From Micractinium sp. NFX-FRZ (lineage: Eukaryota > Chlorophyta > Trebouxiophyceae > Chlorellales > Chlorellaceae), in contig JAPTJF010000266.1 in the NCBI GenBank assembly GCA_029339195.1, forward strand, positions 2,196-66,195: DNA of 64,000 bases, given 5' to 3'. Shown here one piece after another: positions 15,305-64,000 of the stretch. The position numbers and the translations under genes are program-made. A model generated the notes under the pieces. The model did no database searches. It was not told where the DNA came from and saw nothing but the letters and a program-made list of their open reading frames with translations. Each line of letters opens with the position of its first letter. Positions within the stretch are counted from its first letter, which is position 1.

Positions 15305-15591
15305 GCCGTCTGCCGTACTGGTGCAAGAGCGGCTTGCACTCCTGCCGGTGGGGATTAGCAGATCAATAGAAGCAGCAAGACGCAGTTTACGGTCGATTGA
15401 CAAGACAGCGCCTGTGGTGCTGCACATTGGTGCCAGGCCTGGCCACACTTGGTGCCGCACGTGAGGCACATTGTTATTCTTATTGTTTTGGTATCCGTAT
15501 TGGTATTCGTGTTTTTATTGCCATTGAGATTGAAATCTGTATTGTTAGTATGCACATTCTTAGCTTGCGAGGGAGGCAGCCCTCCCCTAGG
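15305..15591. other. Convergent 3' region
   Basis: Tail-to-tail spacer between the ankyrin-kinase gene and channel gene A. It contains an AT-rich stretch at 15470-15560 with short imperfect repeats of GTATTGGTATTCGTG type, unlike the surrounding GC-rich DNA. No gene was seen. Confidence 0.6.
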
Positions 15592-29245: not shown

Positions 29246-30443
29246 TCAGGGGCAGGGGATGGTGCAGGCGCGCTGGGTGGGCGCCCCCGCGCACAGGGCC
29301 ACGTTCACCGCTGCCCCCGGAGTGGTTGCCTCGACACTGATGTTGCGGGCAGCCAGCGCCTCGGCACCGGGGCTGGGAGACCACTGGGCGGTGCAGTCGG
29401 TGAAGGGTTTGAAGCTTGAGTACCAGCCGGAGCGAGCAGTCCTGCAGGGAGAGACGAGCCGTCAGTGAAAGGAAAGGACAGGGAAAGAAGGGAAGGGAAG
29501 GGAAGGGAAGGACAGAAAAGGAGAGACACAGCCAGGGTCTCCCTGGGCGATGCGGTCAGGAGCGTTCCAGCCCTTTACCCTGCAGGCTGCCCTAACCTTC
29601 ACTCTTGATGCCACCCCGTGTACTGGGCGACCCCTCCCCCACCCCGCCCGCACTCGCGGCAGCCTGTGGCGCCGGCCCGTCCAGACACCCCCCCTCCCTG
29701 CCTTCTCACAGCACTGGGGACGCACCTGTATTCACGGCATCCAGTGGCAGCATTGAACAGGCAGGTCGCGTTCCCATCCACGCCAATGCGTGTGAGGTTC
29801 ACGTTGCCTATGTCGCATGCCGGCCTGAGCTGGAAGGGCGCCGCCGCCAGCGGCTGTGCCGGGTTGACCATGCACCCAGAGACGGTGCGGGTTTGCGTGC
29901 CGGCGGCTGAGCCCTCGCCTGCGGCGCAGGCGGCGCTGCAGGGACCCCAGGCGGAGGCGGCGGCAGGCACGTACTTGGGCTCGATGGCAAACACCTCTGA
30001 GAAGTTCTTGCCTGCAGATACAAAGGTGGGAGGCGAGAGGGCAGCGGGAGGGGGTAAGAATCGAGCGGGGGGGGTGACTGCTGCTTGAGCTGGGTGGCAG
30101 GAGGGGCAGCGCCAGGACAGCCCTTGCTGCATATGCCCCCCAGGCCCTGCCAGGGCAGTGCCGCCTCCCCTGCCCTGGTTCCAGGCAGCGCGGCCTGGCT
30201 CACCAAAGCCACCTGCGCACCTGCTGGGCCGGTGATTTGCAGGAAGAGCTCAGTCCCAGAGACGGTGGTGGGCACCGTGAGGGTCAGCCAGGCGGCGGTG
30301 GGGCTCAGCGAGGCCTCCTGGGGCGGGAAGGTGTGCAGGGGTGCCCCCTCGTCTCCCCCGCAGTTGGTGCCCTGGTGAATGGCCACCTCCAAGGCGCCCA
30401 GGGGGGCGTGTGCACGTGGGAAGGTCACGTTGTATGTGTAGCC
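29246..30443 (-). other. C-terminal thrombospondin-type segment
   Basis: Exons 30443-30221, 30011-29726 and 29441-29246. The second exon has a thrombospondin type 1 core, WGPCSAACAAG followed by QTRTVSGC, typical of extracellular adhesion or matrix proteins. The last exon ends with CTIPCP and a stop. A beta-rich region with ITGPAG precedes it. Confidence 0.7.
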
Positions 30444-42400: not shown

Positions 42401-45400
42401 CTTGTTGGCAGCAACGGAGCCTGCGGCGCAGGCGGGCAGGCAGGCAAGCAAGCAGGCAAGCCAGGAAGCAGGGGTGGGGGTCACAGCAAGGGACAGCACA
42501 GAGCGTGCGCAGCGGGCCAGGGAGATCAGCAGCCACTCCGCGGCAAGAAGGAGGCTACCGGGCAGCTGGGGCACCACCACGCCAGCGCCCCTGCAGCCTT
42601 ACCTCCCGGGGCTGAGCTGCACGGCAGGCCGGGTGGCAGCTGGACGACAAAGGGACCTCCTCCCATCTGGTCCCACCTGCGGGCGGTTGGTGAATACGCA
42701 AGGGCAGGCAGGTGTCGGAACAGGCTGCAGCGCAGGCAGCCAACGAGGCAGCCTGTGGCAGTCTGCATCCACAGGGTGCCTCCTCCCCTCCCCCTCTCTC
42801 ACGGTGCGTCGGCCACAGATGCCGCCCCGCTGCCCTGCCTCGCACACGCCCCCACGCCCACCTCCTCTGCTCTGATACGCACCGCCAGCTCCAAAAGGCG
42901 AGTCCGGCCTGCCCAGCAGCACCGCCGGCCCCATGCCCCACTGCCAGCTGGCGCCCTCAGGCGGCGTGACAGCTGAGCCCTCACCTCCACAACGCATCCA
43001 GCGCATGCTCTCTTGTCTCATCCGACTGCAGCTTCAGCCTCCTGATCTGCTCCTCCACATTTAGCTCCCTCAGCGCCTGGGCCTGGAAGTCAGGCAGGCT
43101 TGCGGCCCGCTCCGCAGCGCTGGCCCACGTCACGCTCTCCCCTGGCCAAGGCTTCCACAGGGCCAGGGTGCAGGGGTAAGTAGAGCAGCTGGCACGGCTG
43201 ACCGTCTGCAGATTTTCGCGCGCGCCGTAGTAGGGAGCAGTGAACGAGGTCTCGGGGCCGCCTGGGGGGCAGGGAGGAGGGGGGGGGGCGGTGGCAGGGT
43301 GAAGGCAGGGTGGTTGGCGGTGGAAGTGGGCGTGGAGGCACAGTGGCAGAGAACAGGGGACAGGCGGCAGAGGGACAGAGAACAGGCGGCGGGGATGCAC
43401 GAGCACAGGGTGTCGCACGGAGCGCGCGTGATGGGCGGGGTGGGCCGAAAGTGGAGGGGCAGGCGGCCTGCTCAATTGCCTGCCCGCAGTGAGCGCACCT
43501 CCCATGCCCAGCAGCTGCAACCCCCTGTCCTCCAGCCGCTGCTTCCACGCGTTGTACACCGCGTCTGCCTGCATCTGGGCCTGCAGGCACACATGCATGA
43601 GGGCAGGAGGAGGGAGCGCATGGGTCAGAATGAATGCGCAGGCTTAGGAAGGGCATGTGGGGATGCTACCATCAATTTATCGCCGTGCCTGCCATGGTGA
43701 TAAACCATCCACCCTTCACTTCACCCAGGCTCAGCACCCACCTGCCGAGCCAGGCCCTCCAGCTCGGGCAGCTCCATGCTCCCCTTGGCCTGCGCCAGCG
43801 AGTTGTTGTTGGCCACACACCAGTAGCAGCGCCCCGGCCCCTGGAACGCGGCGGTGGTGCCCCAGCCGCCGCTGACGGCGATGGCGTCGATGTTGGACAG
43901 GCCGGTGCCGCCAAAGAGGGCGCGCACCTGCGGGGGGGGTGGGAGGGGGTGGGGGCGCAAAGGCATGGTGGTGTCTGAGGGAAACGGTGGCCGAGAATAA
44001 GAGGCAAGAAAAGAACCAACAGAAGATAAGGCAAGAAGACACTGAGTGTGTCACTGGCAGTGGCGTTGCAGGCAGCCCCCAGGTCTGAGCGTGCACCGGC
44101 GGCACCAGGCAGCCGGCAAAGGAGGCGCACACACACCTGGTCGGCCTCGGCGTTGCGCAGGATGTAGGGGATGCTGTCCTTGCCTGCACAAGGGAACAGA
44201 GGGTCACAAGTTGTGGTGCTTGGGGCGGCGCAGGATGTGTGCAATGGTGCCCTTGCCTGGGAGCTGAGGGGGAGACGGCCAGCGGAGCCGGTTTGAGGGC
44301 TTCGCCCAATGGGGCGGGAGTGAATTCAGGGTGGGGGCACGAGGAAGACGCCGGTGGAAATGGCAGACTGCATGTCCCGAGTACCTGCGGGGGCAGACTG
44401 CATGCAATCATTGCACCAGGCGGCAGCAGCCAGCAAGCAAGCGTTCTCGTCAGCCAGACGCCACCCTCCCACACTACACTGCCACACACCTTGGTGGGAG
44501 TCTGTCATGGCGACCACCACCACGCGCTTGGGGTCGAGGCCCAGGGAGGAGAAGGCCTGGCGCCAGATGCGCCCAATCCTGATGGTCTGGGTCACCTGCA
44601 CAGCAGCAGTGTCATGCAAAGCATGGCCATGTTGTGATTGATGATGCATGGCCCCGCTCTTCCCCCTTCCCGCTTCCCCTCCCCTCCCGTCGCTTTCAGG
44701 TCACCCAGCCAGGCACACTGGCCTCCCGCCCAAAGCATGAGCGCCCCGCCCCGCACCGCACCGCCCTGCCCCAGCCTTCCCCTGCCCTGCCCTGCCCTGC
44801 CCTCCCCCAGCCTTCCCCCGCCCCGCCCTGCCCTCCCTCAGCCTTCCCCCGCCCCGTCCTGCCCTGCCCTCCCCCAGACTTCCCCTGCCCCGCCCTGCCA
44901 CAGACCTGGTTCAGTGTCATCCATCCGGGCGCGTTCTGCCCGTACTCCACATACACCTTTGCCCCCGGGGCCAGGTTCTGGGCCACATAAGTGGCAAAGC
45001 CGGTGATGTAGGGGTCGGAGTCGCTGGCGGCGTTGGGCTGGGAGAACCAGGCATCGGCGCCCAGCTGCAGGGCGGGGTGGAAGGGGGAGGGGAGGGAGAG
45101 GACATACTGAGGCAGGGGGGCTTGGGCAGTGGGGAGCATGGGGTGGTGGTGCCCCGCCGTGCGCTCAACTCCACGCCTGCTGGCACCCGTGTCACCCCTG
45201 CTTGCACCCAGTGCTAAAGTACTGGTACCAGTCCCCACCTTGTTGCACAGCGCCACCATGAGCTCCACTGCCACGCCGTCGGGCTGGTAGGCAAACAGGC
45301 CGGAAGGGGTGGTGGGGTAGAAGGTGCCGTTGCGGCCAGCCTGGGGGGTGGGATGAATGGGAGTAGGGGGGTGGGGGCATGCGCATGTGTTAAGCCAATG

Positions 45401-48322
45401 GGCGCCCAGCCGCCATATAGGACAGGAGACACCAAAGCTGACTGCATGTTGCTGGCAGGAAGGGCAACGCCATGTGTTCCGCTCTTCGCTCCCAAGCTGG
45501 CGCCTCTCTGGCAGCGCCTGCTGGCTCCCCTACCTGCGTCTGCGTGTACAGCGTGGTGCGGTTGTCCCAGGACCGGGCCCTGGTGGCCGCATTGTTCTCG
45601 TCCCCCTTGATGCGCTGCCAGCTGGTGAAGCGCAGAGGGGTGAAGCCTGCACGCGTGTGTGTGTGTGTGTGTGGTGGTGGGGTGGTGGTGCGGGGCGGGG
45701 GTGAAAGAATGAGGGAACCGGGGCTGAGGAGGAGGCAAGTGCACATGCCAGGTGGCGGGGCAGATGGCAGGCGAGAGTGCCCAGCAGGCTGGCAGGCCGA
45801 CACGCTGGATACCTGGCTGGACGGACAGGCAGCAGGGCAGGCAGGCAGCCAGCCCACGCAGGCGCCCAGCCAAACCGCCGCCCCGGGCGCACCTTGCAGC
45901 CTCTGGAGGAAGCTGGGCTGGAAGGCCTCCGCCTCGTGCGTCGCCTCGTAGGCGGCCGGTACGATGCGGATGTACCGCACAGGGTTGGAGGGCGTGGTGG
46001 CGGTGATGCGCACGGTGATGCCGGCTGGAGAGGGCGTCACTGCGAGGAGCTGGCGGCTGGGGGTGCTGGAGGTGGGCACTGCGTCGCCGCTGGCCTCCAC
46101 GGTACCGTTGCCGTCGTACAGCAGCACGTACTGCCCTGCACATCCGGGTAACATGGGCAGTGTGGGATGTGAACAACAGGCGGCCCAAGACGGCCAGGCT
46201 TGCCGCCTGTGTGGCAGGGTGCAGCATTCGGGATGAGGTGAGCGCCGAGGGTGCAGCTGTTGAGAGGACATACAGTGGGAGGTGATGGGGAGGTGCAACT
46301 GGGGAAGGGGGCCAGGGCTTCATCAAACAGCAAGCCCATCGTGTGCATGCGGCATGCCCATAGCACCGCACTTGTGCCTCTCCCAGCAAAGGCTCCCCAC
46401 CCCACCACCCCACTCCACCTCTCAGCTAGTGTGCCACCCCCTCTGCAGGTGATGCACACACCGACAGCTGGCGACGCCCCGCCTCTGCAAAACCAAGGGC
46501 AGCCGCCTCGACACCCACCCACCTTGCGGGTAGTGTGCCGCCCCCTTGCCGATTGTTGCGTACACCGACAGCTGGCCGTACGACGTGCTCTGGGGGAGCT
46601 CCGCAGGGTAGCCATCCAGCCTGAGCTTCACTGGCTCGCGAGGGGCGAAGCCCCACGCGCCAGTGCACGTGCGGCAGCGCGACTGCGGCTCAAACGGCGT
46701 GGCGTGCTGCAGCGAAAGCGCAGGGGCAGACAGAGGGCGGAGAGCAGTGGGGATGGCCGGCGGGATCAGTGGTTGATCCATATTGTATTGGGACCGGAAG
46801 CTGGGGAGGCAGCCAGGGGTGCCTCCCTCCCTCCCGCTGCCCCGCGATGTTCTGCGCACCCCTGTGGGTGGTGCACCGCTGCACAGTTACACTGCTCACC
46901 CTGCCCGCATGCCGCCCATTGCAGGCCCCACTCACATACCCCAACCCGCTCACATACCCCCCCACCCACTCTAGCCCCACCCACCCCACATCACCCCACC
47001 CCACCCGCAAAGGCCCACCCCACCTTCATGAGATCCAGGAAGATGGCTGAGCTGGCAGCCGCCCATGCGCCCGCATAGGTTGGCGCCACCAGGTCCAGGG
47101 GAGGCATGTCCAAGCCTGCGGGAGGTGGTGGGCACAGGGAGCGCGGGCAGCAGAAAGTGAGATGTCACCAGCAGGAGCGGGAGTGGCACGTTAGATTGGT
47201 CCAGAAGCCGCAAGCGGCAGTGAGAGCGCCCGTGATAGCGGCAGCGGCAAGCAGCCGCAGCGGTGTGCAGCAGCCAGCACCACAGCCAGCCCATCCGCTG
47301 CCATTGCTGAGCACACATGGCAGCTGCCACTGCATTACACTCGCACCTGCTGCATGCTCACTGCTGCCGCGGCCTCACTACTGCTGCACCAGCGGACTGC
47401 ACCCCTTTGTTTCACACTTGCAGCTGCTGCCACTATTGACGCTGCACACTCACTCCCGCTGCACCAGCTGAGTGACCCCCTCACCGATCTGTTCGGCCAG
47501 AGCCTTGGGCCTTGCAGGAGGAGGCGAGAGGGACGGCGGGGGAGGGCTGGGTGGCGGGGGGCGAGCGGGGGGCGGTGGGCGAGCGGGGGGAGGGGGCCTC
47601 TTCGGTGGGGGTGGGGAAGGCTTGGGTGGGAAAGGGGGAAAGGGCCTGGGCCGCGGGGGAGGCGGGGGGGATGGCGGCGGCGGGCTTGGGGCTGGGGGAT
47701 TGGGAGGGGGAGGCTGTGGAGGTTGCGGGCGGGGCGGCGGAGGGGCGGGGGATGGAGGTTTCGGCATTGGGGGCGATGGGAGAGGTCTCGGGGGCGGTGG
47801 GCGAGGTGAGGGAGGGCGAGGGGGTGGGGGCTGGGGAGGGGGAGGGCGTGGGCTGGGTGGAGGCGGACGAGGGAGTGGAGGAGGCGGGCGGGGAAGAGGG
47901 GGAGGCGGCTTGGGAGGTGTTGGGCGGGGGGGAGGAGGTGGAGGGGGCATCGGACGCGGGGGAGGGGGGCTGGGAGACGGGCGTGGCGGCGGTGGCTTCG
48001 GGGGTGGCGGTCGCGGCGAGGGCGAAGGTGGTTTGGGGGCTGGTGGGGGTGGTCTGGGACTTGGAGGAGGGGGAGATGGCGGCCTAGGGCGAGGAGGTGG
48101 TGGCGAGGGGGGCCGGGGTCGAGGTGGTGGTGGCGGCGGCCGCGGCGACGGAGGCGGCGGCCGCAGGGGTGGCGGTGGTCTCAGCTGTGCCAGCCGCCGG
48201 CCCCTGGCGGGCTCAGCTGGCCCCTCTGAGCCTTCCGATACAGACCTGGCATCGTCAAAGCCCGCCACGACTCTGGCGACGAGCGTCAGCAAGAGGGCGA
48301 GTCTAAAGGCCCGCAGTCGCAT
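29246..48322 (-). CDS. Giant secreted protein with three glycoside-hydrolase-like modules
   Basis: Proposed 49-exon gene encoding about 2,410 aa. Order: signal peptide (LALLLTLVARVVAG), polyproline stalk (residues ~50-275), GH-like module 1 (~280-861), EGF-like segment (~862-927), GH-like module 2 (~928-1418), Cys/EGF-rich segment (~1419-1626), GH-like module 3 (~1605-2176) and a thrombospondin-type C-terminus (~2177-2410). Modules 2 and 3 carry EYANEVW/EHSNEVW and YEAG motifs, resembling the acid/base and nucleophile glutamates of clan GH-A hydrolases. It should act outside the cell, probably on or in the cell wall. Exon coordinates are listed with the modules below. All phases close across the 49 exons, but a break into two genes cannot be excluded without transcripts. 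Three introns use GC donors (after 38441, 33881, 30680). The stop is TGA at 29246-29248. Exon-edge copies fill several introns. Confidence 0.78.
32572..32608. repeat. (CACAG)n microsatellite
   Basis: About seven CACAG units adjoin the donor of exon 32719-32613, within the intron of the giant gene. Confidence 0.9.
34684..34775 (-). repeat. Duplicated 3' splice site with in-frame cassette
   Basis: The exon start at 34684 (TTTGCAG|GAACCAGACCAACC) is repeated 87 bases upstream in the transcript (exon start 34771). Because 87 is 29 codons and the interval has no stop, both acceptors are usable in frame. The second copy encodes NQTNPWD instead of NQTNQWD. Confidence 0.8.
35151..36646 (-). other. 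Cys-rich / EGF-like segment between modules 2 and 3
   Basis: Exons 36646-36540, 36356-36276, 36048-35966, 35660-35409 and the start of 35250-35151. Cysteine patterns such as CNGHGVCKADNTCACDAGY and CQYGTCYNGRCECWAGYTG are EGF-like, about three to four units, typical of extracellular spacers. A PAPPPSPPPSNNTS linker precedes them. Confidence 0.75.
36939..41562 (-). other. GH-like module 2
   Basis: Exons 41562-41470, 41238-41089, 40812-40671, 40411-40237, 40013-39890, 39680-39533, 39366-39239, 38971-38880, 38555-38441, 38211-38080, 37531-37496, 37263-37184, 36996-36939. Motifs: FVGINLEGISDYSRSW, YTLLYDGEGVV, RNMRLLMPG, APWFSLPYSAGDDY, VYVEYANEVWHTGF (Glu ~1197), VAYEAGQG (Glu ~1343), YWGLKEWMDQ. 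This is the best-preserved copy and a likely active glycosidase; its substrate is unknown. Confidence 0.75.
41807..42182 (-). other. EGF-like segment between modules 1 and 2
   Basis: Exons 42182-42063 and 41884-41807 encode CNPACVYGNCVRGECVCWAG followed by SGDDC, one EGF-like unit. Confidence 0.7.
42341..47115 (-). other. GH-like module 1, catalytically eroded
   Basis: Exons 47115-47024, 46706-46523, 46135-45893, 45646-45534, 45340-45239, 45064-44906, 44595-44490, 44183-44137, 43927-43742, 43580-43499, 43261-42985, 42676-42603, 42420-42341. It aligns with modules 2 and 3 through YVLLYDGNGTV, RYIRIVPA, DAWFSQPNAASDSDPY and KVYVEYG, but the NEVW motif is replaced by QNAPGW and the YEAG region reads LLGMGGGPE. 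It is probably a non-catalytic, possibly carbohydrate-binding copy. Confidence 0.68.
44765..44905. repeat. Intronic CCCTGCC/CCTTCCCC minisatellite
   Basis: Repeated blocks of CTGCCCTCCCCCAGCCTTCCCC type with several near-identical copies lie just upstream (plus coordinates) of the donor of exon 45064-44906 in module 1. Confidence 0.8.
47517..48190 (-). other. Polyproline stalk with strong strand asymmetry
   Basis: The first exon (48322-47485) encodes about 225 residues made mostly of PPPPRPP, SPPPP and PSPRPPPP units, a hydroxyproline-rich glycoprotein pattern seen in green-algal wall proteins. The plus (template) strand is therefore almost pure G/A/T-poor G-rich DNA for over 600 bases. Confidence 0.9.
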
Positions 48323-49188: not shown

Positions 49189-52100
49189 TCACTTCTTCTT
49201 GCCATTGGCACCGCTCTTGGCATTGGAGAGCAGGTTCCAGAGATCGCTCGGGTTGGGGGGAGCGCCTGGGGCGGCAGCAGCTGGGGCTTGCACACGCGCC
49301 TGAGCCGCCGGGGCTGCTGCGGGTGCCGGCATGGGGGCTGGCGCCGGCTGCGGCTGCCCAGCGGGCGGCGCCGCCAGAAGGGTGGCGGGCATCGGCGGCG
49401 CCGCCGGCGCTGCTGGGAGCTCAGAGGGTCCGTGCTGCTGCTGCAGCTGCTGCCACAGGCGGGAGAGGTCACCCCCTTGCGCCGGTGCTGGAGCTGGCAC
49501 GGCTGCTGGCATTGCTGCTGCAGCTGCAGGGGGTGCGCTGCGTGCAGAGCCTGACTGCAGCCGCTGCAGGAGCGCAGCCGTGCCTGTGACTGGCAGAGGC
49601 GCAGGGGCGGGGGCAGGGGCGCCGCCCTGCTGCAGCTGTGACAGCAGCTGCATGCCCAGCGGCGGAGGCGGCGCCTGCTGCACCGCAGCAGGGCGCTGCA
49701 GCTGCTGCAGCAGCGCGCTGCCTGCGGCCAGGCCGGGCGGCGGCGGCACGGGGGCCGGCGCCGCAGCTTGGGGTGCAGGCGCCGGGCGGGGCGCGGACAG
49801 CAGCGCGCCGGGAGACGGCGGCGGGGCCACCATGCCGGGCTTGGCGGGGGACTGCAGCTGCGCCAGCAGCGCCTGCCCAGGGGCCACGGCACGAGGCGGG
49901 CTGGTGGGCTGCTGCTGCTGCGCGGCCGCCGATGCCAGCGCCGGCGCAGTGAGCACTTCGCTCGGGTGCCCTGTGGGCTGCACCGGGCCGCCGTTGCTGC
50001 GCTGCAGCTGCTGCAGCAGCGCTATGCCAGGGGCAGGCGGCGCTGCCGGGGCGGCCGGCTGTGCTGCGGATCCAGGGACTGAACGCCGCAGGTGTGCCAG
50101 CAACTGACCCGCCGCGTCTCCGGCTGGCGGCGCCCCCGCTGCCGGCACGGTTGGGGCACCAGGGGCAGGCACAGTGGGTGCCCGGGCTGCAGGGGCGCCC
50201 GGGGAGCTCGCCTGCTGCTGCTGCTGCGGCTTGCCTGCAGCTGCCGGGCGCAGGCCTGGTGGCAGCGCGGCAACAGCGCCCCGGCCCATGCCGAAACCCT
50301 TGGCATTGGGCTGGCCAGGGATCTTGGGCTGCTGCTTGCTGCTGCTGCTGCTGCTACCGCCGCCCGCCCCTACGGTCCAGGCGCCAGCTGCGCTGTTGGC
50401 CGCAGCGGGCGCGGGTGGGGTAGAGGGCGTTGCGGCAGCCGGCTGATGGGGCGGCCGCGGCGGCGGCGGCACGCCAGACAGCGCCGCCGCAGCGGCCTGC
50501 AGCGCCGTGGCGGCGCTGGGCCGCGGCTGCGCGCGCGGCACAAGCACAACGTTGCGAGTGGCGCCGTTGACGGCTGCTGCGGCGGCGCTGGTGCTTGCTG
50601 CGGCAGCGTCTGCCGCCGCCGCGGGCTGCTGCGTCCGGGTGGCGCGCACAACGCGCGGCGCATGCTGCCCTTCTGCTTTGACCGCCGCCGGCTTTGAGAG
50701 GTTCAGGAGCTCCTGAGACGGGAGCAGCATGCCAACGTTGCCGTTGCAGCGGCCGTAGAGGTCGCTGCCGCCCGCCACTTCAGCATCAAACACCACCTGA
50801 ATGGGGGCAGGGGCGACGTGGGAGGGATGTGCTGTTTAGAGTGTGTCCACAAGTCGCTGCCGCGAGCCAGCCCAGCATCAAGCAGCTATTTGAAAGGGGA
50901 GCATTGAGGCATATGAATTGGGGAGACTGAACGGAGCAATATGTGTGGAGTTTGGGGATGAGGCGTGGGGCGTGCACCCCTCTCCACACACACCATATGC
51001 TCCACCCCCCCTTTCTCCCTCTCTCCTCATTGCTAAGAAACCTCCACGGCAGCGCTCCCGCCATGCACCCTGCTCCCCGGCTGCATCCTCCCACCCTCTC
51101 TCCTCCGCTAATAACAATGCAGAAGTGACTCCTCACCTCCACAGCATCGTTGTACGTCCCCACCACAGTGCCCCGCACCCCAAAGGCGGGGGAGCCGCCG
51201 CCGCTGATGGCAGCCACACGGTCACCAATGTCAAACACGCCGCCCGCCAGGGCAGCCGCCATGCCGCCCTTCTCTGCAGCAGCGCAGAAAGCATGGGAGG
51301 ACGGGAGTGCGGTGGGTGTGGTTGACGCCCCTGGGGTGGGTGCCAGGTCAAACACACGATTAGACACGGCACCTGCAAGTGCAGCCGCCAGTGTGCAGGC
51401 CTTTCCTGAGTTGAGGTAAGGAGCAGGCAAGCACGGTCTGGCTGGCAGGCAGGCAAATGAACGTGCGAATCGATGGGCGCAGGTTTGGCTGACGAGGGAA
51501 GCACGCGGCGGGGACGCAGCGCTTCACGCTGCGGCGAGAAGGAGGGAGGGAGGCATTGGCAGGCGCTGGGCACACACCTGTGGGCGGCAGCAGCAGCGTG
51601 GCAGCCACGTTTTCCAGCTCGACCGCCGCCTGCTCCCGTGCACGCGGCGGCAGCGCGGCCTGCAGAAGAAGAAGACATTCCAACACGGCTCGATAGAGTG
51701 GTTTGAAGAGGCCAATCAAGTCCAGCTCAAGCCGTGTAGCAGCAAGCATAGTGAGCAAGCTGCATACAGTAGGTAAACAACATGTGCATCCTACCTGCAG
51801 CATCTTCACTGCCGGCTCGGGCGCGACGCGTGCGCTGAGCTTGACCAGCGGGCGGCGGGAGAGCGGCAGCCCCTTGAGCCACTTGGTCAGCGAGGCCACC
51901 TGGGGGGGGGGGGGGGGGCACAAGGCAGGCAGGGCAGGGCAGGGCAGGGCAGGCAGATTGGGTGGGTGGGGCGCAGAAGGACGGGTGTATTGCGCACAGC
52001 AGATGGGGAGGCGGGCGGGCGCTGACCAGCGCCGCCTGTTTTGGCGGTGTGCGTCTCTCTCCCCCCTCTCTCCCCCAAGCTGACCCTAATGCAGATGCAT

Positions 52101-55100
52101 GCAGATCCACGGGCCTTCCCACCTGCTCCAGCTGCTGCTCCCTGCCCAGCCCCGGCATGAGATTGTCCAGGTGGAGTTCGGCTGCACAGCAGGCACAGCA
52201 GGGTGGGGAGGGGGGCAGCAGGCAAATGGGTATGGGTGAGGGACGTGGGCATCAGGTTGGCAGGGTGGAGCTCCGCTGCCTGCTAGGTATGCTACTGCTC
52301 GATCTGCCTCTCCCACCAGGCCTGCCCAGCGCAGTGCTGCCCTTTCCACCCCTTCCACCCCTGCCACCTGGCCAGCCCTCAACCCTTGGCACAACAACCA
52401 TGCACTCCCCACGCACCTGGCGATGCATCCGACTCGATGCAGGCCCACAGCCAGGGGTAGCGGCGCTTGTAGTCATCCAGGATGCGCACCAGCGCCTCGC
52501 TGTACGACCAGCCTGCAGAGACGCACACCATACAAGGGAACATGTGAGGCTCCTGGGAGGTGAATGGCGGGTTTGCGAAACAAAAAAAAAAATGACAACA
52601 GGGGTGCATGCGCAGGTGCGCACCAGGGCCTCTCTCTGTAGGGGCGCCCTACCCGCCATCCTCACACGACTGCGCAGCCCACACCCCACGCTCACTCTTG
52701 GCGTCTCCATTCTCCATGAGTGGCCGTGCAAAGTCGGGGACGTACAGCCCCTTGCCCCCGTTCTTCACGCACAGCCCCACATCCACTCGGTCCCGCCGCT
52801 CCTCGCCCGCCTGGAGCCACACGTTGCCTGCGGGGCGGGGCATAGGAGGGGAAGTGCATGTCCGTTTTATGTTGTGTTGACACTCAGGGTGCGGGCGGGA
52901 GGGCGGCGGAGGGGCGGGGCGGTGGTGCGCGAGAAGTGGGAGAGTTTGCGGCATGCAGCATAGCACGCCCCCCGAGCAACGGCATCTGCTGCTGGGAGGT
53001 GCGGCCCGGCCAGCAGACAGCCGTCAGCCTGGGCACACGAAACCGCTGCTCTCGCCTGCCTTGCGCCCCAGGGTGCAAGGCCAGACGGAAATACAGACTC
53101 AAAAACACCAAACAAAATTATTGTTACAAAGGCTGGGAGGAGCTCACCGGTCATGCGCCCCAGCGTGCGGTGCGATACACCCAGGCGGCGCGCCACCTGG
53201 CCGGCGGGCGCGTACTGCACGTTGATGTTGCCCAGCACGCGCTTGGCTGCATGGGGGTGGTAGGAAGAGGGAAGGGTGGGCAGGTGAGAGGGGCTGGCAG
53301 GCCGCGTGCAGGGTAGGGTGCATGTACAACAGGGATCGTGCAGCCGTGCAGGCAGGCAGCAGGGGGAGGGGTGCGCAAACTCCGCCAACCAGCATGTAAA
53401 AGCTGCCCCACACGTGTGCCTGCTCAGCTGCTTGCAACGTCTGCAGCCACGCACCAAGTACCTCCCCTCGTGGCACAGCCAGCCCACCCCCCCCACAGTT
53501 CTTGCCCCCGCCGGCACTCACCCGACTGCGCAATGGTGGCGGCATTGGCGGGCCCAGGCTCCAGGGAGACCCGGAACACGCTGCGCTGCTCCTGTTGGCC
53601 GCCTGCCACCAGCTGCTGACCCTGCAGGCGGGGAGGCGGGAGGAGCAGGTGAAAAGCAGCAGGCAGGTCAGGTAAGCAGGTGGGCAGGCGGGTGACCAGC
53701 GGTTGCATTTGCAGCGGAGGGGCCTGCGCTTGGCCAGCCGTGGTCACCCCTCCTGCCCCCTGCGTCTCCCCCCAAACACCCCCCCCCCCCCCCCTGTCCC
53801 CACCCTGAAACTTCCTGCTGAGACCCTCGGGAGGCAACTGAAAAAAAAAACAACTCAAATGGCCATTCATCCCCCACCCCTGTGCACCCGGGCCAGCGCA
53901 AAGGGTCAACAACCTTCCCAGCACCATGCTCCCCACCCACCCGCCACCCCCACCTTCTTGCTGAGCCCCGTGGACGCGTCTGGCAGTATGGTGGCCATGC
54001 ATCCGTAGTAGGAGCGCCCCAGGAAGAAGGCCCGCGCCCCGGGCTTGAAGTCGTAAGAGACCAGGGAGGCGGCGGCGGTCTCGGGCTGGAAGCGGGGGTC
54101 GGGGGCGGGGTTGCGGCGCACCACCAGCTGCGCGGGGAGAGGGAGGGAGGGGCGCGGGGGAGCAGGGCAAAGGCGCGGCAGGGTGAGTGAAGGAGTGGGA
54201 GGAGCAAGGGGGCAGGGTGGGGCAGCGCAGGGCACATAAAAAGGCAGCAAAGCGGGAGAAGCGGGCACCACCCACCCAACCCTTCGCCCACGCGCACTCT
54301 CTCACAAAAGGGCCACTCCCCCAGCAAGCCACACACCTCCAGAGGGTATGCCACCTCCGTCTTTGCAAACCGCTTCTCAATGGTGCCGTCAACCTGTGGG
54401 TTGAACAGGTGGGCAGAGCAGGGTGTGCAAGAAGGCAGGCGGAAAGACGGGGCTTTTGAGTGGGTAGACGCGTGCGCAAGCGGACGGGCAGGCAGGCTGG
54501 CCATCGCAAGAGCACAAGCACTGAGGAGGGCCAGCCAGGGACACATTTCGCTGCTGCGCACGAGCGATGTGCCAAGGCGGCGTGAGGAATGCATGCATAG
54601 TATTGTGCATGCACACGCGGGCGCACGGTGCTGTCGAGGTGGTGCAGGCGGGCGGGCGGCTTACCTGGCGGACCAGCCCCTCACAGGGGCGCACATGCAC
54701 CACCAGCGTCACCTCACCGCAGTCCACACCCTGTGGGCAGGCAGGGGCAGGCAGGCCATGCAACCTGGTGAGCCGGACAGTGGCAGGGGCGCAGCGCAGG
54801 GAGAGCGGGGGATGGCACGTGCGCGAGTTGGCGGCAGCGATGCTCCGGCAGCCTGACACCCACCCCATGCCTTGCTCCCAACCCAACCTTGCCCTGCCGA
54901 ATCGGTGTTGCCCACATCCGTTGGCCTCCTCTCTTCTCCCCTCTTGAAAGTCGGATCCCTGCCCACCCTCCCAATCCTTTCTTGTTGCCTCACCTGCTTG
55001 TGCAGGTACTCCTGGGTCAGGCGGTGCCGCTCCTGCTGCCACTCCCCGGCCTCGGTGTTGCCGTGCTTCACAGCGCCCGCAGAGCGCGACACCTTGACGA

Positions 55101-58100
55101 CTGCACGCACACACACACAGGCACAACGATACACACAGGCACAACAGGCATACATGATCAACAAAGAGACACCGCTTGGACAGCGCAGATGTGTGTGAGT
55201 GCAGGTTGCTGCGGAGCAAGCTAGTGCGGACTGCAGGCAATGCCTGGTGGCTTGTGCTTGGGCCACTGGCCGCCTTGCCTGCCCCTCGCTGACCGCCCTC
55301 CCCACCGCCTCATCTCCCAGAGGGGGCCGCTTCAGACAGCAATCCAGTACACATGCGTGCAGCCCCCAAATAAGCATGCACCCACCCACCCACCCACCGG
55401 CATCGCTGACCGCCTCCACCACCGCCTCCTGCAGGTATGGCCACTTCACCCAGCAGCGCTGCCCCAGCAGGGCGGCAGCCACCTGCTCCGCGCCCAGCTG
55501 CTGCCCGCCCAGCTGGCTGGACAGGCCCTGCGGCAGGCAGGTCGGGCGGGGGGCGGGGGGTGGGGTGCGGGGCGGGGCAGTGCAGGGTCAGAATGCGCCA
55601 GAGTGTGGAGACGGCTGGAGTGGGTGGGAAGAGTGGGAAGCAGTGCCCTCAAACTGCCACCTTGTGCCCTCATCCGCCCACGCACCGCCACTACCGCAAC
55701 ACAACCCCTCACCCCACCCTGAGGCTGCATTGCGAGGGCTTCAGCCTCCTCCTCCTCGACCACAGGCACTGGCCAACTCTGCAGCCCCACCCCCAGCCCT
55801 TGCATGAGGCTCAGAAGGAAGGACCCCCGCCCAGCGCAAGCTGCAGTACGCGGGTTTCTCCCTGCTGCTTCGTAACCACAGGCACTCGCCAGCTCTGCAG
55901 CCCAGCCCCCCCACCCCCCGCATGCATCCAAGAAGGAAGGGGGGACCCCGCCCACCTTTAGCTGCAGTATGAGCGACTCCTTGCGTGACGACATGCCAAA
56001 CACGTTGACCCCAATCTTGCGCAGCTCGGCTGCAGGGAGGGGAGGGGAGGGTGACGACATTGAGGGGCAGGGGGTGAGGGGGAGCGAGGGAAGGGTGGTG
56101 GCATGGCGTCACAGGGTGGGCAGGCCAGGGCAGCAGACTCTGGTTTGTGGCAGCTTCAGATACACACCTGCCCATCTTTCATTGGCCCACCAAGCCGAGG
56201 CAGCACTAAGCAACACCTCCCCAGCTAACCCGCTCCACCCCACCCCGCCCCACCTGTTGACTTGATGGTGGCGAGGGAGGGGAAGCCGGGCGGCCCGCCG
56301 CTGCCGGTCTTGGTGCCCGCCACAAACTGCGGGCCGATGATGGGGCAGGAGCAATGGAGAGGGAGCGCAGGGGGAGGGTGAGCGGTGCACGCGCACTGAC
56401 CAGCTGCATGCAACGCCAGCGCCTGCCTGCCTACCTGCCCTGGCCGCCGTTCCACGAGGTGCACCACCAGAGGCTTGGCTGCGCCCCGTGCCCACTCCCG
56501 GTCCCGCCCTCTTCTAAGTACCTGAGGCACGAATCCGCGGTCCCCGCTCGGCAGCGGCGGCGGCGCGGCCTGGGACACCGCCCGCGAGTTGGAGGCGGAG
56601 ACGGAGGCAAAGTGGGCGGGCAGGGTGGAGGTGCAAAACTCGGTCTCACCCGCGACACCTGCATGGGGAAGGGCGGAGCAGGGGGGCCCAGTTCAGGGTT
56701 GGGGAGGGGCAGCATGGGGTGGGCAGGCCGGGGCGGGCGGAGCTGGCGGGGTATTGGCGGGCGGGCCACTGAGGGTTGGCAGTGCAGGGCCCAACCACTT
56801 GCCCCATCTCCCTGCAACCGTCCCATGCATGCAGTTCCAAGCATAAACGCATGCTTTAAGCGCACCTGGTGCATGCGAGAAGACCAGGATGTCCCCGAGC
56901 GTGTTGCGCTGTCGCTCCTCCGGGGTGAGCACGCCGGGCGGGATGCTGCGTGCGGCAGTCAGCAGGCGCTGCTCGTCGATGAAAGGGATGAGCACCACCC
57001 CCTCCCAGTCAGCGCCTGCATGGATGGAGGGTTGGGAAGGGCGGGTGGATGAGGTGGCAGCAACAGGTGAGGTGGGCGGGGGATGAGGCGGCGTGCAGGC
57101 AATGCTCATCCGACGCAGCAGCAGCAGCACCAGCCCAGGCGCCAACTCAGCGCCGCCTCAGCACCCGCTCATGCTCGCACTTTGAGTGCACGCGGTCAAC
57201 TGCCCTTCAGCTGCAAGTCGATTCAAACTCAAACACCACCAAACAACAGACCTATACCCCACGCACGTCTGCCTTTCATGCCCACTTTGGCTAACACCAT
57301 GCAGGCAGACACACAACACACCCCTGCCTTCCTCATTTCCCCTTGCCGTCCATGCCCACTTTACCTATAGCAGAAGACAGAAGCAGCCCTGCCCCCTCTC
57401 CCCCTGCCCTCTTCCCAGTACTCACGCTTGCCGTCCATGCCCAGCTGTGGACTGACACACCAGACTGACTGTAACACACCTGACCTCCCCACCCCCCACA
57501 CCCACTCACGCTTGCCCTCCATGTCCACTTGAAAGTCTGTCGGGTAGAAGTCAAAGATGGGGGAGGAGGAGTCGCACATGAGGTGCTGGTAGGGCGACGG
57601 CAGCAGCCGGTGGCTGCGGCGCATGGAACGGAACAGAAATGGCGGTTGGTGGGGGTTGAGGCGGCAGAGAGCAGCGAGGCCGCGGGCAGGCAGGGGACTT
57701 GGGAAGGCAGCAGAGGGGCAGGAACGACGCCCCAAACCAGGGCCTCACTCACCTCCTCAAGCCAGGGCCCGCCCTCCTGAAAGTGTGCAGCTCAAGGTCA
57801 GACATGCCTGCCTCACTCCCCCACCCCTTCCCACCCTACCCCACCAACACCATCTGCTGCTGCATGGCCCCACTGCCCACAGCTGTGTAGTGCACACAAC
57901 CTCAACCTCCTCCCTGCCTCCCTCCCTCCCTCAAGACAGCGCCCCACCCCCCAGCCCCACCCCCAGCGGCACCTGCTGGATGGCTGCACCGCCAGTAGCT
58001 GCTCGTAGGGCAGGAAGGGTTGGCCCAGGGAGAAGTGGACAGAGATGGCGGGCAGGCGGGTGAGGTCTGCGGGGGGAGCAGGGCGGTACAGGGTTGGGGA

Positions 58101-61100
58101 CGTGGACGGTGGCGACGATGACGGGGGAGCGGCAGGTATCTCCTCCCCTGGCTGCCAAATACATAGGAGGCAGGCGCAGGCGAGGCCGCAAGGTGCAGCG
58201 GGTATCACGCGTGCGCGGTGCAGTGCCGTGTGGCGCCAGGGGGTCCCACACACTTGTGAGAGTGCAGTCGGTTCCAGCGACCACCCCACCCGCTTACTGC
58301 CATGGGCGCGTAGCCGCATCCCACCAGACACAGTGGTCCGGGCCCCAGCACCACAGGCAACTCGACCCCAACTGCACAGAGCCGCTCACCCGAGGCCATG
58401 GGTGCGTAGTGGTATGGGTAGTACCAGTTCCAGGAGGCCACCCCCCGGTAGTAGTACTCCAGCACCCAGTGCAGCCCCTGTGTTGACAAAAGGACCGAGG
58501 AATCAGTCGCAGGGCACCGACAAAGCGGTTCGCTACGCCTGAAACGACAGTAGCTACTCCAGGGATGCAGGCAGGCCCCCCCCCATGCATGTTCCCAAAT
58601 CACTCGGCAACACGTGTGTGACGCTCCATGCATGTTCACACGACCCCCGCCCGCCACACCTGTATGTACGACTCCACCACCTGGCGGCGCCCCGCCTCGC
58701 CCGCCACGTGCAGCTTCTCACGATAGTACCGCAGCTGCCAGGGAGGAAGGAGGGCAGCAAAGCAATATGTAAAGACGAGAAGTAAGCAGGTGTTCAGCAA
58801 CATGCTTCGTGCTCGTTCAAACGTGCCAGCATTACGCCTCCGCTCCTGCTGGCGTCGGGTTGCACAGGGCAGGCGCCTGACGCGCTGTCCTCGGCTCCCA
58901 TAAAAAAGACAAGATTGCATGCCCAAACATCCTAAAAGCCCCCATTTCAAACAGGTTGCGCGTCCCAACCCATCCCAACCGTATCTCGCACGACTTGCTC
59001 ACCTTCCAGGCCGCCAGCCCGCTGTCCTTGTCCCCGTTGAGGAACAGGTTGCGCGCCTCCTGGCTCATCATGGTCGGCTCACTGCTGATGGCGTGCTTGG
59101 TCAGCGCCACGTCACCCTCCCCACCCTCCCCCTCCAAAAGCTCCCCCTCCACGGCGGCCAGCAGCTCCAGCTCGTGCCCCTCGGCCTGCAGCGCCAGCTT
59201 GGCCATGTCCAGCTGGCGGGGGGGGAGGGGGGTGGGGGCGAGGGAGGAAAGGGAAAAAGAGGGTTGTTGGGAGACAAGTGGACAGGTGCAACAAAGCGCC
59301 GCTTGGCCATGTCCAGCTGGCGAGGGGGGGAGGGGGGGTAGCGAGGGAGGGAGGGGAGGGTAGGAACAGGGTTGTTGGGAGACTAGTGGACAGGTGCAAA
59401 GAAGCACCACCTCGTGCCCCTATCTCTCACTTCCCTTCGCCATCACCGTCCCCAAATGCCGCCCCCCCACAACACACTATCATCGCCACACTGACTGGCC
59501 TCACCGCGAACGCGTCGTCCTCGTCTATTTCATCCTGCAGGCGCGCCTGCTCCTGAGCGCCGCGCTTGGCCGCCACCCGCGCCGAGGCCCAGGCCGGCTC
59601 GCCGCCGCCGCCCCGCCCCCGGCTGCGCTTGGCCTCAAACGACTCGGCATCCTGCAGAGCGCCAGGGAGGGAGGGGGGGAGGGACGGAGGTGGGCATATG
59701 GGCAGGTAAGGTGGACGGAGTGGAACCATGACGCGTGGGCAGACGCAAGGGTTCACAGCTCTGTCCGGGGGAGGCTCGGGGTGGGCTGCCTGCAGGCCTG
59801 CCATCCGACCACCCACCCACCCACCCGCCCGCCTGACCCGCCCGCCTGACCCCTTGTCCTGCCCAGCGCGTGCCCGACCACACCGCACCACACGCCTGCG
59901 CACACGTGTAGCACATCTGCCTCCGCCCGCGCCCTCTCCCCCCACCCCACCCGCGCTGACCTCCCACCACCACCCCGCACCCACTTCTGCCCGCGCGGCC
60001 AGCACGTCTGCCTCCGCCGTGGCCAGGTGCCCCATGAACGTTTCGAGGCGCGTGCGGCTCAGCTCCCCCGCGTGCGTCAGGTAGCCCCCCAGCTCCGGCA
60101 GCAGCTCCTTGTACAGCGCAAACATGGCGTCCAGGGAGCCTGTGGATAGACAACACAACAGGGGGGGAGACAAAAGGAAGGGCGTGGTTACAGACTGTGA
60201 AGAAGCCTGAAACCCGGTGTCCAGGGAGCCTGGAGACGCACGACAACAGGGGGGAAGCAAGGTACTTTCCGTTGCATTCCCACGTGTGTGAGGGGTCCGA
60301 TGACGTGGTACCACTACTTGTGCCAGGGTGTGCAGTACCTGTTGAGCTGGCGGCAGCGGAAGCTGCCAGAGGGGTGAGGCTCAACCAACCGGGAGCAAAC
60401 AGCAAACGCAACCCCCCACCACTTGAACGCCCCTGGGTGGAAACGCAGCACCCAAGCGTGCGCACTACCCGCAGCACAGGGCCAGGGTCAATACTGATAT
60501 AGTATAAAAGATATAATATTATAGTCAGGCCAGGCTCACCCTCGTTGATGTCCACGGTTGGCAGGGGCGGCAAAAAGTCGTTGCCCACAAGCATGCAGAA
60601 GAGCACAAAGTCGTCCACAATGCGCTCCAGGTCGTACGCAAACGGCAGGCGGCCCGCCAGGGCGGTGCGGAACTCGGCGTCAAAGTAGTCGCGCAGCAGG
60701 CTGCGGGTCGAGAGGGAAAGAGGAGAATAAGAAGGATTCAGGGGGTGAAATTTCAACCGGGCGGCAGGGGAGAGAGCAGGGGAAGGGGAGCCACTTGGCG
60801 TCAAAGTATTCGCAGAGCAGGCCGTGATGCAGAGGAAAGGAGGAAAACGAGCAGGTTTTGGGGCGACGCAACCAGGCAGAAGGCCGGCCTGGCGCGCGTG
60901 TGGGGACAGGGAGGAGGGCAGGGGAATGGGGCCACCCGGCATCAAACACTTTTCTGAACAGCCTCACCCGATAAGAAGCAGCACACAGTGCTCCGGGCAC
61001 AGGTCGCCAACTCCACTCCCACACGACATGTGCCCTTGATTCAAGCACGCCAGTGCACTCACCCTATCTGCAGCAGCACAAAGTGCTCCTGGCAGGGGTT

Positions 61101-64000
61101 GTCCAGCACCTCCCTCGCCGGCTGCCCGCGCCCGCCCCCCGTGAACGACACCACCTCGCGCAGCAGGCAGAAGTGGGGCTCGTGTGTGACCAGGCTGCAA
61201 CACAGGGGGAGATTTGTGTGCAGGGGACATGGTTTTAGAGATGTAGAGGCAGGGCAAGCAGAAGTGGGGAGCTCGTGGGTCACCGGGCCGCTCAATGAGG
61301 GCAGGCGTTTGGGTCTTCGCAAACACAGGCACGGCCGCATACAGAGCAAAGAAAAGCAAAGAAAAAGCACGTTGCAGCACAGGTGGCCGGGGCCATTCGT
61401 GCCTGCACCCACCTGAGCATGATGAGGTCGGCGTCCAGGCCGTACAGGCAATGCCGCGTGTTGGGCGCGTACTCGGGGCGCCGCTTCTGCGGGGAGGCAG
61501 GGGAAGTGGGGTTTCAGGGTTTCAGGGTTTCAGGGTCGGTCCAAACCCACCGCAAGCAGCGGCTCCCGCAAGGAAGCAGGGCGGGGGCAAAGCAGCAGGC
61601 AGGCGGGCAGGCGCTACAGGGTGAGTGGCGTGGCTCGCGTGGTGCTGCAGGGACCCCGCTATGCCTTGTGCCTCTCCCGCTCTCTGGGCGCTGAAACACC
61701 AGCAAACTGAAACCTCCCCCTCCCCCGCCCGCACCTGCCAGCGTATGTACTCCATGATCTTGTGCTCGCCCTCGCCGGGCACGTCGTGGCCTGCAGGGGG
61801 GCGGGTGCGGGAATGGGGGCGAGTGGTGCCGGCACGGCGGGCGGTGCAGGTGCAAGTGCAGCCAGCGCAGGGCAGAAGGCCTGCGCGGTGCGCACCCTGC
61901 ACACCCCCCTCCCGCCCCCTCCCTCCCTCCCTCTCCCACCTCACCCTCCCACCCCCCCCCCCTCCGCCAGCTCACCGCTAAAGATGATGGTTGGCTTCTG
62001 CCAGGCCGGGTCCTCTGCAATCTTCTTGCGGATGAAGAAGCGGATGTGGGCGCCTAGCCGCGCCATGAAGGCTGCAGGCCGTGGCAGGGAGGGTGGTGCT
62101 CAGAGCTGGACAGAGGATTGACAAGACAGCAGATGTCGGCCCTGGCGGCAGAAGGAGCATTAAAGGGGAAGATGGGTGCAGGAAGGGCGCGCGTGCGATG
62201 TGGTGGAGGCACACAGGGGCCAGATGAACGCCGCAGCACAGCGCCAGCCAAGAGCCACGAGCAGCTGCATGCATCACAAACAATGTGACTGGTGGCGTGG
62301 GCACGGGCAAACCCAACCATGCCAAGCCAAACAGCAAGGCCGCCCATGCACATGTGCCGCACGTGATAGCAATTTGGCAGCAGCTGCTGGGGCAGCAACG
62401 TGTGCATGCACTCGAGCGTGCCGGGCGTGACGCAGTTTTTGTTGAGTGTGCATGGTCACTGCAGGCAACACAGCAGGGTGGGAAGAGAAGCCACTCACGT
62501 GTGCCGGGTGTGATGCAGTTCGAGTCGAACCGCGTCCCAGGCTCTGGCGCGGGCTCTCCGCGCTTGACCGCCGCATCTATCGCCTCCTGAGCCTCCCGCG
62601 CTGCAGGCAGGAGTGGGGTCAGGCAGGGGAAGGCGTAGCCATCAGTGTAAGCGGTGGCAGCGGCGGCAAGCGGCTACTGGAGCAAAGTGCATCAGCAGGG
62701 ACAGTGGTGTTTACACACCACAGCGGTGGGTGTACCCTTCGGCACGCTACAGCAGCAGCGTCACACTCAGCAGCCCAGCAGCGGCTCAGCTGCAGTGTGG
62801 GCGGCAAGCAAGGCGGCATGCGCGCACCCGACTTGAAGCGGCGCGACCGCTGCTGGTTCATCTTGGCGCGCGGCGCTGAGCCGTCGATGGCCATGAACAG
62901 AAGCTTCTGCTTGGGGAAAAAGGCAGGGGTGGCACAGAGGCGCAGGGGCATGTGTAAGAGGGTGAGGACGATGAGGGCAAGCAAGCACAGGGGCAGGCAA
63001 AAGGACTGGTGACGGGCGTGAACAGCAGCTTCTGCCTTCAAGAAAAAGCGGCAGGGATACATGCGCTCCGGCACCCCGCCACCAACAAGTACGGCCGCAG
63101 CGTGGTGGTTTCACACGGTTTGCAGGGGGGCACACCCGAGCAGCAGCAACAACCAACCCTACCGTCAACTGTGTGTACCTGCGGCTTGGCAATGTGAAAC
63201 AGCACACACACGCAAGGGCAGCTGCCAACCCTACCTGCGGCTCGACACAGTGAAACGCAAGCAGCGCCAACTGACAACCCCACCTGCGGCTTGACGATGT
63301 GGAACAGCTTGTCCAGGTAAGTGAAGATCTTCATAATCATTTCATCCTCAGTCAGCTTCACGTCTGGGTTGTTGCCGTGCGTGCAGTTGTGGATGATGCC
63401 GTTCTGTGCAGGCGAGGGGGCAGGCGGGAGGGTCACAGGAGGGCAACGGTGTGCCGGGGAGTGGGGCAGGGATGGCCAAATGGCGGGAGAACCAGCATGG
63501 GCTGGCGGCTGGGAGATGAACGCGCAAGGGTGGCAGTGAACAACAGGGCAACAGAGCAAGAGGGGACTGTGGACGCGGGCGGCGCGGCAGCGGAAGCAGC
63601 AGCAGCGGAGTCAACTGGCATGGAGCAGCGCTTTTCCTGCCAGCAAGCAGACGATGCCTAGTGGCACACTGCTGCAGGAATGAGTGCAAAGCTGGCACAG
63701 CTGGTGCCGGCACCACCTCTTGGCTCCTCCTCACCATGTCCAGGTACAGGTTGTCTGCAGGGCAGAGCAGGCCGGTGAGGGAGCAGGGTTTAAGCCAGTG
63801 CGGAAATCCATGTCGACCTCCTGCACGTGGGCAGGTGGCTGATGCCCTGGCACGCAAGCCGTAGAGCAGTGTGCCAGCCCTGTCGCCGCCACTGCCGCCA
63901 CTGCCCGCCCGCCCCACCTATGATGGGCACCACAGTGGCGCCGCCCGGCTGGTTGATCAGCGGGTATCGCTCGCTCAGCCATCGGTAGAACTTGGGGATG
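49189..64000 (-). CDS. XRN1: XRN1-type 5'-3' exoribonuclease (5' end cut by window)
   Basis: Degrades decapped, 5'-monophosphorylated RNA, normally in the cytoplasm. Thirty-five exons: 64000-63918, 63754-63735, 63403-63284, 62906-62828, 62600-62499, 62071-61976, 61790-61735, 61486-61413, 61194-61063, 60700-60540, 60139-59985, 59651-59505, 59212-59003, 58734-58660, 58477-58390, 58066-57973, 57613-57510, 57015-56866, 56658-56522, 56326-56254, 56029-55956, 55527-55398, 55100-54994, 54730-54665, 54393-54337, 54127-53954, 53621-53522, 53246-53148, 52827-52696, 52512-52417, 52181-52123, 51899-51795, 51659-51578, 51273-51137, 50796-49189. Only about five bases (ATG and part of Gly2) lie outside, so the protein is ~1,728 aa. 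Catalytic acids are present: YLDMNG (D35), IDGSAP (D84), GEGEHK (E175, E177), LDADLIML (D205, D207), GNDFLPP (D297). Middle exons match the XRN1-specific domains, with an SH3-like region near residues 1148-1225, then a long Pro/Ala/Gln tail. Confidence 0.95.
49222..50110 (-). other. XRN1 C-terminal tail with repeated LLxxLQ motifs
   Basis: Within the last exon, Pro/Ala/Gln-rich disordered sequence is punctuated by eight short amphipathic elements: [68 protein letters not shown] and [11 protein letters not shown]. The tail ends in KKK. Such spaced repeats look like docking motifs for another protein; this is an inference. Confidence 0.7.
51901..51919. repeat. Poly-G tract at an acceptor
   Basis: A run of about 18 guanines on the plus strand (cytosines in the transcript) is the pyrimidine tract directly before the acceptor of exon 51899-51795. 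Confidence 0.85.
53777..53796. repeat. Poly-C tract in an XRN1 intron
   Basis: A homopolymer of about 18-20 cytosines inside the intron between exons 54127-53954 and 53621-53522. Confidence 0.85.
57340..57530 (-). repeat. Three copies of an exon 3' edge and donor
   Basis: The exon end encoding VDMEGKR with its GTGAGT donor (57504-57530) recurs in the next intron at 57421-57445 (GMDGKR with GTGAGT) and 57340-57360 (GMDGKG, donor lost). Confidence 0.75.
59202..59320 (-). repeat. Duplicated acceptor with exon start
   Basis: The acceptor and first codons of exon 59212-59003 (CAGCTGGACATGGCCAAGC) are repeated about 106 bases upstream in the intron (59303-59320), together with the intervening purine-rich intron sequence. 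Confidence 0.8.
60673..60965 (-). repeat. Tandem unit spanning an exon 5' edge, 2-3 copies
   Basis: The exon start coding [10 protein letters not shown] (exon 60700-60540) plus ~90 bases of intron is repeated at about 60790-60815 (reads [10 protein letters not shown]) and 60930-60962 (reads [10 protein letters not shown]). The intron is essentially built of this ~125-base unit. Confidence 0.8.
63178..63308 (-). repeat. Three copies of an exon 3' edge, ~52-base unit
   Basis: The exon end coding LFHIVKPQ with its donor (63282-63308) recurs in the following intron at 63233-63257 (FHCVEPQ) and 63178-63202 (LFHIAKPQ). Confidence 0.85.

Follow-up and report, generated by a model that had tools for sequence, protein, structure and literature searches.

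The XRN1 locus and the survey

The window, by which we mean the whole 64,000-nt stretch of Micractinium sp. NFX-FRZ DNA analyzed here (G+C of about 66%), carries on its reverse strand an XRN1-type 5'-3' exoribonuclease gene, identified by its Pfam domains XRN_N (6e-94) and XRN_M (5e-100), the protein of which finds its best match in Micractinium conductrix (79% identity across 84% of the query). Next to it lies a large gene with EGF-like repeats, called a wall-protein gene in the first-pass annotation of this DNA. Introns of both genes contain copies of the adjoining exon edges (Table 1).

Besides the window, we surveyed twenty 10-kb stretches from other contigs (labeled L0xx) of the same assembly (66 Mb, 838 contigs), which brings the DNA surveyed to 264 kb. 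We placed the first 18 exons of XRN1 by hand, which together form a single open frame, and used them to train a simple gene finder for both strands. Retrained on the 264 kb, it gave 55 models with 522 introns. All 18 hand-set exons were recovered exactly, these being also the training seed, and none of the 55 models has in-frame stops, an outcome that the method nearly forces; the six model proteins that were sampled all matched Pfam families, SPT16 and patatin among them. The fusion of XRN1 with its neighbor in the gene-finder output hardly affects the introns used. We set aside 23 of the 522 introns, because the model had fewer than 300 coding bases or either flanking exon was missing, and kept 499. 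The data basis is one assembly, our own gene models and sequence only. Introns of the sample have a strong strand skew, with G at 0.43 after the donor and declining along the intron, and C at 0.50 before the acceptor.

Table 1. Genes and exon-edge copies in the window (shifts in nt)
Feature	Position	Strand	Remarks
XRN1-type 5'-3' exoribonuclease gene	49212..64000	-	3' end from our own model; 5' end beyond the window
Large neighbor gene with EGF-like repeats ("wall-protein gene")	28429..48083	-	limits approximate; fused to XRN1 by the gene finder
Donor-side copy of exon end 63284	63179..63203	-	shift 105, 88% identity, GT kept; shorter copy between, by eye
Donor-side copy of exon end 62499	62418..62437	-	shift 83
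Acceptor-side copy of exon start 61194	61254..61287	-	shift 93
Donor-side copy of exon end 61063	60968..61020	-	shift 95, GT kept
Acceptor-side copy of exon start 60700	60762..60821	-	shift 121
Donor-side copy of exon end 59985	59896..59942	-	shift 91; weaker second copy at shift 162
Tandem pair over acceptor 59212	59190..59399	-	period 104-108, 86% matches; copied exon start 59295-59316, AG kept
Two donor-side copies of exon end 57510	57342..57443	-	shifts 84 and 169
Donor-side copy of exon end 46523	46427..46487	-	shift 104
Acceptor-side copy of exon start 44183	44219..44256	-	shift 73, AG kept
Acceptor-side copy of exon start 36646	36712..36756	-	shift 110, AG kept
Acceptor-side copy of exon start 34684	34741..34771	-	shift 87, AG kept
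62-nt tandem pair over donor border 32114	32013..32131	-	91% matches
Donor-side copy of exon end 31610	31492..31560	-	shift 118; not named in the first-pass annotation

Exon-edge copies in XRN1 and its neighbor

Thirteen borders in the two genes had been named beforehand as places where an exon edge recurs within the intron, and all 13 proved to be splice borders in our gene models, with an exon-edge copy in each adjoining intron. Own-intron scores at these borders range from 26 to 56, as compared with means of 16 to 21 for 60 length-matched introns of other genes; at 12 of the 13 no control reaches the score, and at 62906 one control in 60 does. Two of the borders, 62906 and 58390 (score 26), are individually weak. 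The copy at 32114 is absent from our stricter catalogue, where it falls to the low-complexity filter, yet Tandem Repeats Finder reports it as the pair given in Table 1. Taking the first 17 introns of XRN1 by themselves, 15 of the 34 exon edges fit their own intron best among the 17, where 2 would be expected. Copies had also been said to occur in series, and indeed at least two are present at 11 of the 108 borders whose copy scores at least 28 and is not of low complexity, XRN1 intron 57016-57509 being an example. Another stretch of XRN1 intron, at 55724-55969, holds a tandem pair of about 120 nt without any exon part.

Distribution across the sample

The pattern is genome-wide and not special to these two genes. 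A comparison of exon-edge likeness against controls, proposed in the first-pass annotation and run here on the 264 kb, gave an excess both in the window and in the 20 other stretches. Over the 499 introns, the own intron comes first among 61 for 108 of 948 exon edges (edges below 30 nt excluded), with 15.5 expected, and 68 edges score 36 or more where 1.6 are expected; in the other stretches by themselves, first rank goes to the own intron for 79 of 686 edges (11.3 expected). The copies are direct repeats: own introns that were reverse-complemented or reversed yield no excess (15 and 11 edges at a score of at least 30, with 14.5 expected). An inverted or hairpin function was rejected for want of enrichment in the reverse complement. 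A count made independently of gene models, with low-complexity pairs excluded as in all our pair counts, finds 121 repeat pairs scoring at least 18 where the shift is 25-500, versus 4 where it is 3000-3475.

For a catalogue of copies we required a score of at least 34, excluded exon edges below 25 nt, and removed 18 of 94 alignments as low complexity, which left 76 copies. Catalogued copies occur in 65 of 498 introns, about one in eight of the sample (this tally omits one intron between the ranges of XRN1 and its neighbor). By region, the introns with a copy number 11 of 34 in XRN1, 8 of 54 in the neighbor, 1 of 50 in the rest of the window and 45 of 360 in the other stretches, and their frequency varies among genes beyond chance (permutation p 0.005). 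The supposed concentration in two neighboring genes thus reduces to one of them: the neighbor is ordinary when set against the other stretches (Fisher p 0.66), and only XRN1 is enriched. It is among the richest genes (p 0.004 versus the other stretches), a value that does not come from a blind choice, since XRN1 had been pointed out beforehand.

Structure and divergence of the copies

The source of the copies is almost exclusively the outermost 60 nt of the exon (70 of 861 at score 34, with 3.6 expected). Exon segments lying 60-240 nt deep are slightly in excess (15 of 979 versus 8.1 expected), as is the next intron over (8 of 851 versus 2.9). Dispersed copying of any exon piece was rejected, the deep segments being at most slightly enriched. 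Donor and acceptor sides contribute similarly (36 and 40 copies). The two splice borders mostly lie 60-140 nt apart, in some cases about twice as far; border pairs number 5-14 per 10 nt of shift within 60-140 and at most 0.4 beyond 300, while intron-internal pairs drop off near a shift of 120. Likeness runs from the exon through the splice site and some 30 nt into the intron, and is weaker in the intron part. Introns with copies are longer, with a median of 330 nt (counted per copy) versus 240 nt for all introns. Copies are absent from all 96 introns of 150-200 nt and present in 27 of the 90 of 300-400 nt, and the 4 of 65 copy-bearing introns shorter than 150 nt are all mini-exon or array cases.

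The alignments indicate that the copies drift near-neutrally, with little codon constraint. Mismatches by codon position amount to 17.1, 17.2 and 22.3%, and the small third-position excess fits silent change in the exon itself. Shifts modulo 3 (0, 1, 2) count 21, 27 and 28, and gaps are present in 45 of 76 alignments. The splice dinucleotide is retained in 28 of 49 flush copies, near the neutral expectation at an identity of about 0.8 per base; constraint on the inner splice sites was rejected on this ground.

Full tandem pairs are present both inside introns and across borders, and several arrays are plainly tandem. Over borders, they are found at 59212 and 32114 (Table 1), at L010 634-826 and at L019 8862-9146, with 82-91% matches. 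In L018, at about 6017-6216, an array of a 32-bp unit with AG|GT at the joints runs across a donor, and could show choice among near-identical donors.

Probable duplication across splice borders

The reading that we favor, with a probability of roughly two in three, is that the copies stem from duplications of about 60-135 bp, local and for the most part tandem, which crossed splice borders, and that the intron grew while the outer site stayed in use. Short duplications of this kind would recur in the nuclear genome. Where the duplicated unit lies over a splice border, two copies of the exon edge and of its splice site would result, and splicing would continue to use the outer one, that is, the first donor or the last acceptor. 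With the outer site still in use, the protein would be unchanged and the intron longer by one unit, and the inner copy of the exon edge would be left to drift. Splicing of the RNA presumably takes place at the outer site. As for the mutational origin, two nearby nicks may give a staggered break, followed by fill-in and joining, by analogy with the mechanism suggested for rice, to which nickase experiments in mouse cells lend support.

The first-pass annotation had put forward duplication across exon-intron borders as a way for introns to grow, and our findings support this well: the copies are flush with the border and almost confined to the adjoining intron, run in direct orientation, decay near-neutrally and are commonly about 100 nt long, and the introns that carry them are longer. 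The sequence itself shows the copies and the register they keep with the splice site, as well as their adjacency and orientation, the spectrum of their lengths and their near-neutral decay.

A tandem duplication should also leave likeness in the spacer between the two copies. We looked at the 49 of the 76 catalogued copies with a shift of 50-160, flush within 8 nt, in which spacer and partner have at least 15 nt. Likeness extends to the spacer in 17 of them, where about 2.5 would be expected; of the 14 whose identity is at least 0.86, 8 have such a spacer, three of these 8 coming from one array. Simulations started from 157 copy-free introns give likeness in 0.55-0.58 of cases overall and 0.78-0.83 at high identity for tandem units, and in 0.14 and 0.18 for unrelated filler. 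The data fall between the two, nearer to tandem units at high identity, and we read them as mostly tandem with a minority of spacers that are unrelated or decayed. High-identity copies at L006 7594 and L021 3533 have no detectable spacer likeness, which counts against the favored reading, as do the slight excesses from deeper exon segments and in the next intron over, and the lack of a clear tandem insertion in the paralogue pairs described below.

Splice borders as possible hot spots

Two further features of the data depart from the simulations of random tandem units. At shifts of 60-140 (score 16), border pairs number 70 versus 16 intron-internal pairs, whereas simulated units with decay, started from all 499 introns (score 15), give 0.9-1.3 border pairs to one internal pair; among near-identical pairs the count is 27 versus 16. 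Also, the copied exon part is shorter than uniform placement of units predicts, with a mean of 44 versus about 60 nt, and of 29 versus 56-58 nt at an identity of at least 0.86. These features mean either that introns erode faster than modeled or that borders are truly hot. Introns that were shorter when hit would raise the expected ratio. Exon constraint, for its part, would prolong the visibility of border copies; it should at most about double their lifetime, and is already built into the simulation.

These departures are what a rival account would lead one to expect, in which some process bound up with the border, be it the G-rich donor side, transcription or splicing, would place a copy of a splice-site fragment of about 30-60 nt some 100 nt into the intron, with unrelated filler between. 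The spacers without likeness in some high-identity copies agree with it, as does the composition of donors, since introns are G-rich at the start and C-rich at the end and copy-bearing donors are G-richer than others (0.50 versus 0.40, p 0.00015). However, spacers are alike more often than filler gives in the simulation, full tandem pairs lie inside introns as well as over borders, and border copies would stay visible for longer under exon constraint. Copy-bearing acceptor sides, moreover, are not C-richer (0.42 versus 0.47, p 0.04 in the opposite direction), so base composition alone is no explanation, and G-richness as a general cause, which holds for the donor and fails for the acceptor, was rejected. 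We consider true hot spots of this kind unlikely, if well worth keeping in mind. A related proposal, which we advance with considerable reserve, is that borders might be hot for local DNA copying, several times above intron interiors, so that introns would lengthen mainly by exon-edge copies, and occasional spare splice sites would give a new mini-exon together with a new intron.

Mini-exons, intron creation and introners

Duplication with continued use of the outer site, our preferred reading, has further competitors that fare worse. The copies could be real alternative exons or mini-exons under selection, and the gene finder did call a copy an exon (12-57 nt) at L005 2732, L008 1695, L019 8911 and 9024, and L002 5235. 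Their in-frame length is no evidence, because the gene finder forces the frame. Against selection stand the nearly even codon positions, the shifts that are not multiples of 3 and the frequent gaps described above; in L019, the two differences both lie within the mini-exon as called, and the 25 bases of called intron that follow are free of them, which speaks for silent copies. We regard selected exons as quite improbable. The cases in L005, L008 and L019 nevertheless have a potato-type layout, in which a unit lies over the acceptor and GT in the copied exon part is followed by a second acceptor, and the fifth, in L002, is unlike it and crosses the donor. These four layouts are possible candidates for potato-type intron creation, which the gene finder cannot tell from silent copies.

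Creation of introns by tandem duplication had been suggested in the first-pass annotation alongside growth; in the classical model, which a review treats as a genuine mechanism, the duplicated segments are exonic and carry AGGT (PMC3443670). Here the suggestion found nothing to sustain it: not one of the 499 introns has ungapped likeness to its flanks (score of at least 14) when shifted by exactly its own length, the nearest case, a 50-nt intron beside a 15-nt repeat at window positions 41420-41469, missing by 1 nt. Older gains would have lost their trace, and as a source of the introns in the sample the model appears very improbable. Least credible of all is the insertion of a mobile intron-like element (introner) beside the borders with duplication of its target: direct repeats around a spacer do resemble target-site duplications, and 11 of the 65 copy-bearing introns match some other intron, but likeness is confined to 40 of 124,251 intron pairs, of which 8 come from paralogues, 3 belong to one tandem array or lie next to it, and 29 match over 25-91 nt.

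Relation to known systems

Vaughn and Bennetzen reportedly described, in 2014, tandem duplications of plants (rice) that arise by patch repair. The rice duplications are direct, like those of the alga, and mostly tandem, as those of the alga probably are too; in rice, tandem duplications are the commonest insertions, are common at 50-200 bp and lose share beyond about 125 bp, and the repair of adjacent nicks has been proposed as their cause (PMC7971508). The unit length of the plant type, mostly below about 125 bp, is seen in the alga as well, with its shifts of 60-140 and steep fall beyond. Local copies that are partly tandem or non-tandem occur in rice as well (reviewed in PMC7407515), and in mouse cells the repair of breaks with protruding ends gives tandem duplications (PMC5730883). 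The record differs, however: the rice events were read from differences between crop varieties, and those of the alga from decayed copies over splice borders in one assembly (PMC7971508).

A close precedent is an RdRp gene of potato, in which a new exon arose together with a new intron from a duplication crossing the border (PMC4974935). There, a unit over the intron-exon border carries branch site, tract and acceptor, and the four algal layouts are similar; but the new potato intron is backed by RNA reads, whereas the ordinary outcome in the alga, a longer intron, is read from the sequence (PMC4974935). The first-pass annotation had called this route rarely visible, which is a fair description, except that the potato gene had already provided a published case of border-crossing tandem duplication (PMC4974935). 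The tandem genomic duplication model shares with the alga a tandem duplication near splice signals, but as set out in the review it starts from an exonic AGGT unit and requires the intron to be equal to it, which is the configuration that none of the 499 algal introns has (PMC3443670). In Drosophila, tandem duplication has likewise been invoked for intron change; there it concerns novel intron positions with little sequence trace left, while in the alga traces survive (PMC2891723). In literature on this pattern in algae, on border duplication, on break repair and on intron growth, we found no title or abstract opening that describes exon-edge copies as a common intron feature, potato and Drosophila being the nearest.

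How introns come by their length can seldom be seen, since their sequence likeness fades quickly. In the alga, a conserved exon edge serves as a ruler, and every inner copy marks the place and the approximate date of one duplication, so that introns keep a readable record of their own growth. With about one intron in eight marked in this way, the rate of the process, its length spectrum, the choice of splice site and the step from growth to creation would be measurable in one genome with RNA data.

Paralogous genes and shared intron sequence

Two paralogue pairs in the window allow exons and introns to be compared directly. In the pairs formed by genes 0 and 5 and by genes 3 and 4, exons are 97.6 and 91.4% alike and introns 83.8 and 69.6%, which puts the divergence of introns at about 3.5 to 7 times that of exons. 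The pairs contain three gaps of at least 25 nt, all between genes 3 and 4 and none clearly a tandem insertion, which neither shows nor excludes a recent event.

Tandem paralogues lie at 15565-18836 and 19500-22833 (protein 82% alike over 488 residues), and the one that was tested has a neurotransmitter-gated ion-channel ligand-binding domain (Pfam PF02931). At 2420-4161 and 23465-25155 there is an inverted pair of near-identical gene starts, with protein 97.6% alike over 165 residues and introns 84%, which is a recent duplication with divergent second halves. Finally, the window intron starting at 8606 shares stretches of 26-60 nt (78-93%) with introns in L007 (twice), L013 and L016 and at window position 4766, perhaps a small interspersed repeat.
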